This document shows, one piece after another, positions 43,325 through 58,670 of a stretch of 64,000 nt of DNA. The position numbers and the translations under genes were made by a program. Within the stretch, counting starts at the first letter, position 1. Each line of letters starts with the position of its first letter. Source of the stretch: Brachybacterium epidermidis (GTDB lineage Bacteria > Actinomycetota > Actinomycetes > Actinomycetales > Dermabacteraceae); NCBI RefSeq assembly GCF_015209585.1, contig NZ_JADEYR010000002.1, forward strand, positions 124,001 through 188,000, in the 5' to 3' direction. Under the pieces are notes generated by a model that worked only from the letters and a program-made list of their open reading frames with translations, was not told the origin of the DNA and made no database searches.

Positions 43325-44704
43325 TTACCCCTCCGCCGCGGTGCGCGCCAGGTGGAGCATCTCCCGTTCCGTGAGCCCCGCGACGCGGGCCGCAGCGGCC
43401 ACGTCCCGGAACTCGGGCTCCCGCCGCACCACAGTGCCGTCGTCGTCGCGGGCGACCTTCACCGCGATCCGCTGGCCGCGCACCTCGACGTGCTCGAAGG
43501 ACCGGGTGCGGATGCGGCGCTCCACGGCATGCATCCGCACGCCAAGCGTGCCCGTGGAGCGCATCAGCAGATCGGCGAGCTCATCGGCGGCGTCGTGCCT
43601 GGCGAGGGCGTGCACGGTCACGGCAGGGCGGCCGTGCTTCATCACGATCGGCGTGAGCCACGCGTCCAGCGCGCCGTGGTCCAGGAGAGCGTCGACCACC
43701 CCTGGCCACAGGCGCGGATCCAAGTCGTCCACGTTCGCCTCGATCTGCACGGCGGAGGTGGGGGTGTCATGGACGTCGTGGAGCGGCGAGCCGGTGGGAT
43801 GGCCGACGGGCTCGCCGATCAGCACGCGCACCACGTTCGGTCGGCCCGGGGTGTCCTTCGTGCCGGCGCCGATCCCGAGGGCCAGCACCGTCATCGCCGG
43901 CTGTGGGCCCGCCGTGGTGGCCAGGCCGCGCACCAGGGCCACTCCGGTAGGGGTGGCGAGCTCGCCGATGCCGGGGGCGACGCCCGGGGGGACCTTCCGG
44001 CTGCCGTGCGCGTGGGGGCCGCCCTGTGCGTGGGCAGGGAGGTGCTCGTCGTGAGAGTGATGATGGTCGTGGTCGTGGTCGTGGTCGTGGTCGTGCGCGT
44101 GGTGATGGCCGCGCCCGGGCAGGATCTCCCCGGCCACTGTCGGCCAGCCGATGGCCAGGCGGGCCACGGCCGGCACCGGCACCGGGATGTCCCCGTGAGC
44201 GGCGCGGATGCGCCCGGAGCCGACCGCAATCACGCTCGCGGTGCCCTCGGTGATGCCCAACTGCCGCCACGCCTCGCAGGCGCCGATCACATCGGCCAGC
44301 GAGTCCAGCGCTCCCACCTCGTGGAAGTGGACCTCGTCGGCCGGCACCCCGTGGGTGGCGCCCTCCGCCTCGGCGAGTCGGCCGAACACCGCCAGCGCCA
44401 GGTCGACGGTGCGCTCAGGGACGTCGACGTTCCCACGGGAACGCTCCAGCAGCTCCCGGATCGAGGCCCAGGTGCGGTGCGGCGGGTCGTCGACCAGCAC
44501 CTCCACGTCGACCTTGACCGCGCGCTGCCCGCCGCGGTCAACGTCGGAGCGGACGAAGCGCACCGAGTCCGGGACCAGCGCGTCGAGCACGCGCTGGACG
44601 CCCGCGAGGTCCGCGCCGGCGTCGACGAGCGCGGCGAGCAGCATGTCGCCGGCGATCCCGGCGGTCGCGTCGAGATAGGCGGTGCGGGGCGTGGCGGGAT
44701 CCAT
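43325..44704 (-). CDS. larC: Nickel-pincer cofactor nickel insertase LarC
   Basis: Inserts nickel into the pyridinium-thiocarboxylate cofactor of LarA-type enzymes. The 459-residue ORF starts TAYLDATAGIAGDMLLAALVDAG, the family N-terminus. In mid-protein (about residues 190-225) it has a strongly His/Asp-rich stretch (HHHAHDHDHDHDHDHHHSH) that probably binds nickel. LarC1 and LarC2 regions are in one frame, unlike Lactiplantibacillus where a ribosomal frameshift joins them. A -10 lies 6 nt before the ATG. Valine codons favour GTC (7 GTC, 4 GTG, 1 GTT in the first 60 codons), unlike larA. It is separated from larA, larE and larB by a copper-resistance pair. Confidence 0.93.
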   Translation of the reverse strand: MDPATPRTAYLDATAGIAGDMLLAALVDAGADLAGVQRVLDALVPDSVRFVRSDVDRGGQRAVKVDVEVLVDDPPHRTWASIRELLERSRGNVDVPERTVDLALAVFGRLAEAEGATHGVPADEVHFHEVGALDSLADVIGACEAWRQLGITEGTASVIAVGSGRIRAAHGDIPVPVPAVARLAIGWPTVAGEILPGRGHHHAHDHDHDHDHDHHHSHDEHLPAHAQGGPHAHGSRKVPPGVAPGIGELATPTGVALVRGLATTAGPQPAMTVLALGIGAGTKDTPGRPNVVRVLIGEPVGHPTGSPLHDVHDTPTSAVQIEANVDDLDPRLWPGVVDALLDHGALDAWLTPIVMKHGRPAVTVHALARHDAADELADLLMRSTGTLGVRMHAVERRIRTRSFEHVEVRGQRIAVKVARDDDGTVVRREPEFRDVAAAARVAGLTEREMLHLARTAAEG

Positions 44705-44710
44705 GACCGG

Positions 44711-44716
44711 ATCGTA
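44711..44716 (-). promoter_or_regulatory. -10 element for a leaderless larC transcript
   Basis: On the minus strand TACGAT ends exactly 6 nt before the larC ATG at 44704. Confidence 0.5.
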
Positions 44717-57068: not shown

Positions 57069-57182
57069 AACCTACCCTCGGCCGCCGCACGGGTGGCCCG
57101 ACCACGTGTCGCGAGCGGGACCCGCACCGAGGCCCCGGAGTGCTGCCGGAAGCAACGGTGCAGCCCGGGCCGGGTCGGGAAG

Positions 57183-58670
57183 TCAGGCCAGGTCGGCGAG
57201 CTTCTCGAAGCGGTCCAGGCGCTCCCGGTAGTAGTCGGCGTGCTCGGGGCGCGGCTCGATGCGGTTGCGCACCGGGGCCTCGGCCACCTCGACGCCCGGG
57301 GCGGCCTGCTCGAGCGCCAGCACGGCGGAGCCGCGCATCGTGGAGCGGGAGATCGCCACGTGGTCGATCGGTGCACCCAGGGCGTCTGACAGCAGGTGCA
57401 GCCAGGCCGGGATCGCCTCGGTCATGCCGCCGGAGAGCACGATCCGCTCCGGGGTCCCGCCCATCTCCGTGAGCTGATCGGCGATGCGGAGGTAGCTGAG
57501 GGCCACGCCCTCCATCGAGCCGCGCAGCAGGTCCTCCGCCGTGGTGGAGGCCGACACGTTCGCGTACAGGGCACGGGCACCATCGCGCCACTGGGTGCCG
57601 CGCTCGCCGGAGAAGAACGGCACCACCAGCGGGGTGGAGGACTCCGGTGCCGCGGCGAACAGCTCGTCCGTGTCCCAGGTGGAGATGTCGTCGGCCAGGG
57701 AGAACTGGTTGCGGGCCCAGTCCAGCACCCGGCCGCAGTCGCTCATGGCGGAGCCGACCAGGGTGCGATCCGCATCCACGCGGTAGGCCCACAGGCCCGT
57801 CGGCAGCGTGGGCGTCTCCCCGGTGATCAGCTGGCGGATCGCACCGGAGGTGGCGGTGGAGATGCCCCAGGTGGTGGGGCCCAGTGCGCCGATGCCGATG
57901 TTCGCCGCCAGGCCGTCCCCGATCACCGGCACCCACACGGCCTCCTTCAGCTGCGGGAACTCCTTCGCCAGCGGGGTGCCCGCCAGGGGCAGGGCATCGG
58001 AGGGATCCAGCGGGGTGCCCATCATCGCCGCGTCCACGCCCACCGCCTCGAGCAGCTCGGGCACGTACCGCCCGGTGCGGCGGTCGATCATCCCCGACCA
58101 GGCCGCAGAGGCGGTGCCCAGGGCCGGCGTCCCGAGCAGCTTGAGGGCCACGTACTCGCCGAGCGCCATGAACCGGTGCGCGCGGGAGAACAAATCGGGG
58201 TGCTCCTCTCGCAGCCACGCCAGGCGCGGTGCCGTGTACGAGGAGTGAAGGCGGGCGCCGGTGCGCTCGTGCAGCGCCACCGGGTCCAGGCTCTCGCGCA
58301 GCGCGGCCACCTGGGTGCGGCAGCGGGTGTCGGCGTAGGTGATGCACGGGGTCAGCGGCTCGCCGGCCTCGTCGACCACCACCAGGGAGGAGGCGAAGGC
58401 GTCGAAGCCGATCGCCATCACGGGGCCGGGCAGCGGATCCGACAGGACCTTCCCCAGAGCCGTGCGCAGGCCCTCGACGATCACGTCTGCATCGATGGTG
58501 GAAGTGCCGTCATCGCCGACGGTGAAGCCGTGGGGCTGCTTGTGGGTGCGCTTGCCGACCTCCCGGCCGGTGGCGTCGTACACCCCGGCTCGGGCGCCGC
58601 CCGAACCGACGTCCAGGCCGATCACGAGGGGGGCCAGTGCATCCTCATCGGGAATGGCGAAACGGGGCAT
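57183..58670 (-). CDS. FGGY-family carbohydrate kinase, gluconokinase-like
   Basis: A 495-residue sugar kinase with two actin-like domains. LVIGLDVGSGGARAGVYDATG is the N-terminal phosphate-binding region. GFDAFASSLVVVDEAGEPLT and TYADTRCRTQVAALRES, then RTGARLHSSYTAPRLAWL, resemble the gluconokinase branch. The second domain has GDGLAANIGIGA and ERIVLSGGMTEAIPAWL. The Asp of VPVIGDGLAAN is the likely catalytic base. It converges with uxuB on the other strand and has its own ribosome binding site (GCAGGAG). D-gluconate is the favoured substrate in this context; xylulose-type substrates are not excluded. Confidence 0.85.
   Translation of the reverse strand: MPRFAIPDEDALAPLVIGLDVGSGGARAGVYDATGREVGKRTHKQPHGFTVGDDGTSTIDADVIVEGLRTALGKVLSDPLPGPVMAIGFDAFASSLVVVDEAGEPLTPCITYADTRCRTQVAALRESLDPVALHERTGARLHSSYTAPRLAWLREEHPDLFSRAHRFMALGEYVALKLLGTPALGTASAAWSGMIDRRTGRYVPELLEAVGVDAAMMGTPLDPSDALPLAGTPLAKEFPQLKEAVWVPVIGDGLAANIGIGALGPTTWGISTATSGAIRQLITGETPTLPTGLWAYRVDADRTLVGSAMSDCGRVLDWARNQFSLADDISTWDTDELFAAAPESSTPLVVPFFSGERGTQWRDGARALYANVSASTTAEDLLRGSMEGVALSYLRIADQLTEMGGTPERIVLSGGMTEAIPAWLHLLSDALGAPIDHVAISRSTMRGSAVLALEQAAPGVEVAEAPVRNRIEPRPEHADYYRERLDRFEKLADLA

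Follow-up and report, generated by a model that had tools for sequence, protein, structure and literature searches.

The classical uronate isomerase route is encoded by uxaC, uxuB, uxuA, kdgK and kdgA. Here we examine a gene cluster of Brachybacterium epidermidis that has the first two enzymes in common with this route, while the last three were not found in the host genome. The cluster lies in a stretch of 64,000 nucleotides (positions 124,001 to 188,000 of contig NZ_JADEYR010000002.1), referred to below as the window, and the host genome comprises 3.07 Mb in 30 contigs and is 99.88% complete. The cluster includes a homologue of LarA together with larB, larC and larE, and it probably serves glucuronate catabolism in which a nickel-pincer C2-epimerase replaces mannonate dehydratase. 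The literature searched yielded no account of such a cluster from Brachybacterium.

Both the enzyme type and the idea of such a route are already known from other bacteria. Rodionova et al. (2012), as cited in excerpts of PMC6978723 and PMC7583248, proposed that the first uronate steps of Thermotoga maritima are joined to gluconate by means of gntE and gntK, and excerpts of PMC3750489 and PMC7953866 also take up this work. Epimerisation by GntE1 and GntE2 was subsequently shown in vitro (Desguin et al. 2020), and the available part of PMC11770544 describes LarAH15 of an oomycete as a further enzyme active on D-mannonate. GntE2 of T. maritima (LarAH20) is encoded in a UxaR-regulated locus with gnd, uxaE, uxaD, gntE and gntK, and this organism takes galacturonate via UxaE. 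The same regulon includes a kdgA-kdgK-uxuB-uxuA operon, whereas the B. epidermidis genome yields no match to UxuA or PF01081 and no protein that fits KdgK best. The two enzymes also differ in the loop after the catalytic histidine, which reads Glu-Ser in GntE2 and Glu-Val in the window protein.

GntE1 of Corynebacterium glutamicum (LarAH19) is actinobacterial like the window LarA homologue, and activity on D-mannonate has been shown for it. Corynebacterium homologues, used as proxies, suggest that the two share a group, although the gene context of the six Corynebacterium loci examined is unlike that of the window cluster. A search of a C. glutamicum control genome with PF09861 gave no match, and thus the assayed GntE1 presumably comes from another strain. 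Mannonate is also joined to 6-phosphogluconate in Lactobacillus suebicus, by a mannonate kinase and a 6-phosphomannonate 2-epimerase, but there phosphorylation precedes epimerisation, unlike the order proposed here.

Assignment of the LarA homologue

The LarA homologue is encoded on the forward strand at 48044-49384, with the ATG at 48044 as its preferred start, and is the sole PF09861 match in the genome (78 bits, cut-off 23.3). Identity to it is 76-85% in the named Brachybacterium loci and lower in other genera. The cofactor genes of the LarA superfamily are all inside the window and all score above cut-off. These are larB (51535-52314, forward; NF033503 238.4 bits, cut-off 175), larE (50670-51542, forward; TIGR00268 266.6 bits, cut-off 150) and larC (43325-44704, reverse; TIGR00299 165.5 bits and NF052512 128.6 bits, with a Pfam Ni_insertion match), the last of which is a single frame with a His-rich insert. 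Their products would make the nickel-pincer cofactor for the LarA homologue, with LarB acting first, LarE as the sulfur transferase and LarC inserting nickel. All genes named in the original prediction were recovered at their places by open reading frame, Pfam and NCBIfam scans. Curated NCBIfam cut-offs are passed by LarB, LarC, LarE and UxaC, and by none of the LarA homologue, the UxuB-type protein and the kinase.

Residues were counted in 44 sequences, consisting of 35 from Actinomycetes (window protein included) and nine deeper relatives, leaving out C_L099, L054 (a partial sequence) and additional loci from Brachybacterium that are close in sequence. Seven positions (D62, R65, H96, H183, K193, H209 and K308) are conserved in all 44, and they are the equivalents of LarA D72, R75, H108, H174, K184, H200 and K298. 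The loop after the catalytic histidine is Glu-Val (E184 V185) in every sequence, compared with Phe-Phe in LarA. Equally invariant is W304, which we take to be the tryptophan of helix 11 by mapping from LarA Y294. A Glu-Val or Glu-Ser loop and a helix 11 tryptophan are characteristic of GntE-type epimerases (Desguin groups 18-20), as is an Ala/Val feature in helix 14, a part of the protein that lies beyond the end of the LarA reference segments. The segment HWVGALITASRIIG had been singled out as unlike classical lactate racemase, and this observation holds, since the aligned stretch of GntE2 is FHWAAVLMGIPKLIG and that of L. plantarum LarA lacks a tryptophan at this place.

The closest solved structure is GntE2 of T. 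maritima (PDB 4nar). In the tree, the window protein is placed with 4nar and apart from lactate and malate racemases by a 100/100 split, although 4nar is a long branch paired with the very long branch C_L099 and the other references entered as segments only. The split from LarA of two species likewise has 100/100 support. A grouping with lactate or malate racemases, which would have spoken against the original prediction, was not seen. Corynebacterium homologues that are 59-65% identical to the window protein branch beside the Dermabacteraceae. The sequence and its position in the tree, together with the predicted fold and the signature of the active site, place the LarA homologue best with the D-gluconate/D-mannonate 2-epimerases. 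Membership in LarAH group 18 was considered and rejected (NF052594 159.4 bits, cut-off 500), and eight relatives score 160.9-186.7 bits on the same model.

A proposed route from glucuronate to 6-phosphogluconate

The remaining genes of the cluster suggest the following order of reactions. UxaC (about 54283-55728, forward; NF002794 534.1 bits, cut-off 387) would isomerise glucuronate to fructuronate, and a UxuB-type reductase (55731-57068, forward) would reduce this to D-mannonate. The GntE-like enzyme would then invert C2 by hydride transfer to and from its cofactor, yielding D-gluconate; this substrate and direction are inferred. An FGGY sugar-acid kinase (57183-58670, reverse), probably a gluconokinase, would form 6-phosphogluconate, from which a chromosomal 6-phosphogluconate dehydrogenase, present in the host genome, would make ribulose 5-phosphate. 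This four-step conversion of glucuronate to 6-phosphogluconate, the core of the original prediction, is the best supported reading of the cluster, even if the concept (T. maritima, 2012) and the reaction (2020) are not new.

Two of the enzymes are assigned with more reserve. The closest solved chain to the UxuB-type reductase is 4im7 (YdfI), and the NCBIfam models for fructuronate reductase (209.6 bits), D-arabinitol 4-dehydrogenase (203.7 bits) and tagaturonate reductase (146.4 bits) all remain below cut-off. The FGGY kinase scores 157.6 bits as XylB (cut-off 380.25) and 154.5 bits on the gluconokinase model TIGR01314 (gntK_FGGY, cut-off 648.55). Its closest solved chain, 3gbt, is labelled 'Gluconate kinase' (115.9 bits, with the next chain at 72.1). 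An FGGY kinase is thus present as predicted, but its substrate is less sure than the wording 'gluconokinase-like' implied.

Searches of the host genome gave no match to UxuA (PF03786) or to the 2-keto-3-deoxy-6-phosphogluconate (KDPG) aldolase family PF01081. The UxuA search also gave none in any genome of a family sample of 47, and found matches in 5 of 14 control genomes. PF01081 is present in 29 of the 47 family genomes and missing from 13 of the 36 that carry the LarA homologue. Of the five PfkB proteins in the host genome, three are best fitted by ribokinase models, one by a fructokinase model and one by a pyridoxine kinase model. Models for 2-keto-3-deoxygluconate (KDG) kinase reach 59.4 bits or less on these five proteins (cut-offs 400 or more) and are the best fit to none. 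A KDG kinase among them is therefore unlikely on sequence grounds, and the predicted lack of uxuA and kdgK stands for uxuA across the genome, and for kdgK short of a strict exclusion.

ManD was considered as a substitute for UxuA, and none of the three matches to the MR/MLE family in the genome is a good candidate. The first (L111) scores 207.2 bits as L-Ala-D/L-Glu epimerase and 56.9 bits as ManD, neither above cut-off. The second (L112) adjoins what we take by eye to be menD, and the third (L113) presumably is enolase, again as judged by eye. Since there is no UxuA, PF01081, KdgK-best or ManD-like match, the epimerase is the only exit from mannonate found within these searches.

Distribution and gene context

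In the family sample, the LarA homologue is found in 36 genomes and UxaC in 40, and UxaC is present in all 36 genomes with LarA. The count of 36 includes one genome (G022) whose LarA is a fragment. The locus there (L130, C1 about 1687258-1698600) is decayed, and retains an FGGY gene next to remnants of LarC, LarA, UxaC and UxuB. The LarA fragment of about 114 residues is directly followed by the UxaC fragment, and the nearby FGGY gene is matched over 495 residues.

A sample of 394 Actinomycetes genomes covers the class more widely. LarA homologues here divide by score into those above 360 bits, which we regard as this type (18 genomes), and weaker ones below 90 bits, which are the only homologues in 16 genomes. 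UxaC occurs in 15 of the 18 genomes with this type versus 39 of the 376 others, and in one of the 16 genomes that have only weaker homologues. UxuA occurs in none of the 18 versus 22 of the 376. All 22 were kept although two score under the cut-off, and some of the matches, which span only half of the profile, could represent different TIM barrels. Among the 54 genomes of the class with UxaC, 15 have LarA, 11 have UxuA and none has both (Fisher p 0.024, a rough value because the test takes related genomes as independent). The expectation that this LarA clade accompanies uxaC and uxuB where uxuA is lacking is thus borne out by most genomes, with exceptions given below.

The clustering of these genes is not a matter of chance, because it recurs in other genomes. 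Loci in these comparisons extend to 10 kb at most or stop where the contig does (several at less than 5 kb), and the neighbour counts are therefore lower bounds. Sixteen genomes of the class sample belong to other families; in 12 of them LarA has a UxuB-type gene, and in nine UxaC, no more than 10 kb away. The three genomes with LarA and without UxaC have a UxuB-type gene 105, 250 and 1119 bases from LarA. These are G210 (locus L120), G136 (L123) and G214 (L126), and their mannonate may come from another source. The UxuB-type gene of L120 scores slightly higher as D-arabinitol 4-dehydrogenase.

A further set consists of 48 loci of LarA homologues. UxaC or UxuB is within 10 kb of LarA in 17, gnd in 12 and an FGGY kinase in 11, and at least one of these four partners is present in 26. 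The whole route is found in four loci (L038-L041), two from Humibacillus and two of the three from Knoellia, which include genes for a GPH-like transporter (29% identical to one supported by a model), a gluconokinase-like protein, UxuB, UxaC, LarA, LacI, gnd and LarB, LarC and LarE. The third Knoellia locus (L053) has only LarA with LarB, LarC and LarE. Among the deeper relatives, which are 39-46% identical, the gene order gluconokinase-LarA-gnd is seen in L044; gnd adjoins LarA in L043, L046 and L049 and is within 3 kb in L048 and L052. Neither gluconokinase nor gnd is found in L045, L047, L050, L051 and the partial L054.

Several observations weigh against the proposed route. Four of the 40 family genomes with UxaC (G005, G018, G026 and G044) have neither this LarA nor UxuA, and the same is true for 28 of the 54 class genomes with UxaC. 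One of the four, G018, retains UxaC, UxuB, LacI and the FGGY kinase at locus L132; this genome consists of about 40 contigs, with an estimated completeness of 100%. In 22 of the 48 loci, including that of Knoellia locipacati (L053), all four partner genes are missing within 10 kb in the stretch examined, although several stretches are short. The six Corynebacterium loci (L030-L035) lack UxaC, UxuB, gnd and the kinase in the stretches examined, and in C. gallinarum a gene for a DASS anion symporter adjoins LarA. For C. glutamicum GntE1, a KM of 120 mM was published with D-mannonate, which the authors of that work doubt to be the substrate of the enzyme. Within the cluster itself, the scores given above do not separate a fructuronate reductase from D-arabinitol 4-dehydrogenase, and the kinase is divergent, with its gluconokinase score far from the 428.3 bits in L044 and 373.7 bits in L038. 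The L044 kinase, which adjoins gnd and LarA, also misses the TIGR01314 cut-off. Among the five PfkB proteins, the best matches of three are modest (91-135 bits), which leaves some room for a KDG kinase. Finally, a simple 16-mer scan revealed no common palindromic operator upstream of larA, larE, lacI, uxaC, the kinase gene and larC.

One possibility, which we consider improbable, is that phosphorylation comes first. Perhaps 6-phosphomannonate is the true substrate of the Actinomycetes LarA branch, such that the divergent FGGY enzyme is a mannonate kinase and the LarA homologue epimerises its product to 6-phosphogluconate. This order of reactions is documented for L. suebicus cell extracts with the genes unidentified, according to excerpts of PMC6978723. 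The distance of the window kinase from typical gluconokinases fits as well, and the very high KM of GntE1 with free mannonate would allow for a different substrate. However, unphosphorylated D-mannonate is accepted by GntE1, GntE2 and LarAH15, better-scoring gluconokinases are found in relatives of the same clade (L038 and L044), and the solved structure closest to the window kinase is the one labelled gluconate kinase. If this order were true, a nickel enzyme would act on a sugar-acid phosphate, and it would be a candidate for the gene type behind the L. suebicus activity.

Slightly less probable still is that the substrate of the LarA homologue is a different sugar acid, for instance an aldaric acid such as D-glucarate/D-mannarate, and that the gene is close to uxaC and uxuB as part of a wider uronate regulon. 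An aldaric acid was suggested for group 19 by Desguin et al. (2020), and the symporter gene of C. gallinarum is compatible with this. However, no other enzyme that consumes mannonate was found, in searches that extended neither to dehydratases of the IlvD/Edd type nor to glucarate enzymes from families other than MR/MLE. Moreover, the gnd and gluconokinase genes that adjoin LarA in distant relatives fit gluconate as the product. A lactate racemase located in a uronate cluster by accident, as the larA-C annotation of Brachybacterium equifaecis in the available part of PMC10581053 would have it, and in line with the generic name of the superfamily, is most implausible, because lactate or malate racemase identity is rejected on the scores (NF033504 67.9 bits, cut-off 460) and the tree, and the loop differs in all 44 sequences.

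Adjacent genes and significance of a proposed nickel-dependent route

Several other genes are located within or beside the proposed epimerase route. A LacI-family regulator (53140-54141, forward; Pfam LacI and Peripla_BP_3) is encoded directly 5' of UxaC, as it is in all 10 Brachybacterium loci with UxaC among the 48, and likely regulates the uronate genes. Between LarC and LarA is a heavy-metal P-type ATPase (44839-47151, forward), whose long N-terminus is rich in His and Gly and which scores 562 bits on the copper subfamily model (cut-off 397). A Gfo/Idh/MocA oxidoreductase identified by Pfam and NCBIfam (49428-50477, reverse) is opposed to the operon between LarA and LarE, and may be part of the route. 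Homologues near LarA are 84% identical in L056, where the gene adjoins LarA, and 55-56% identical in the L040 and L114 clusters, again adjoining LarA in L114.

Downstream of LarB there are two overlapping genes for SMR-family small membrane transporters. The first (52286-52771, forward) matches Pfam Multi_Drug_Res and the second (52768-53088, forward) is an open reading frame; NCBIfam models are below cut-off for both. Many Brachybacterium loci likewise show two SMR matches after LarB. A Dyp-type peroxidase gene (58816-60120, reverse) adjoins the kinase gene, and does so also in L014, L023 and L132.

The cluster also bears on existing annotation. In the available part of PMC10581053 (2023), the larA-C gene of B. 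equifaecis JHP9 (Bequi_13030) is read as a lactate racemase, and the paper reports that gluconate is assimilated by all three Brachybacterium species tested. Our locus L025 is from the same strain, with a LarA 76% identical to that of the window, and its gene would correspond to Bequi_13030. If so, the published label is probably wrong, and the product is most likely a sugar-acid enzyme.

What is new is that the route through the epimerase is apparently the sole one for glucuronate in this cell. Its gene context further bears on the question, left open in the 2020 paper, of which substrate the GntE1-type group uses natively. If the proposed route is correct, carbon from glucuronate would flow into the pentose phosphate pathway and not the KDG/KDPG route, and the use of glucuronate would depend on nickel in most of the Brachybacterium genomes examined, namely those that carry this LarA but lack UxuA.

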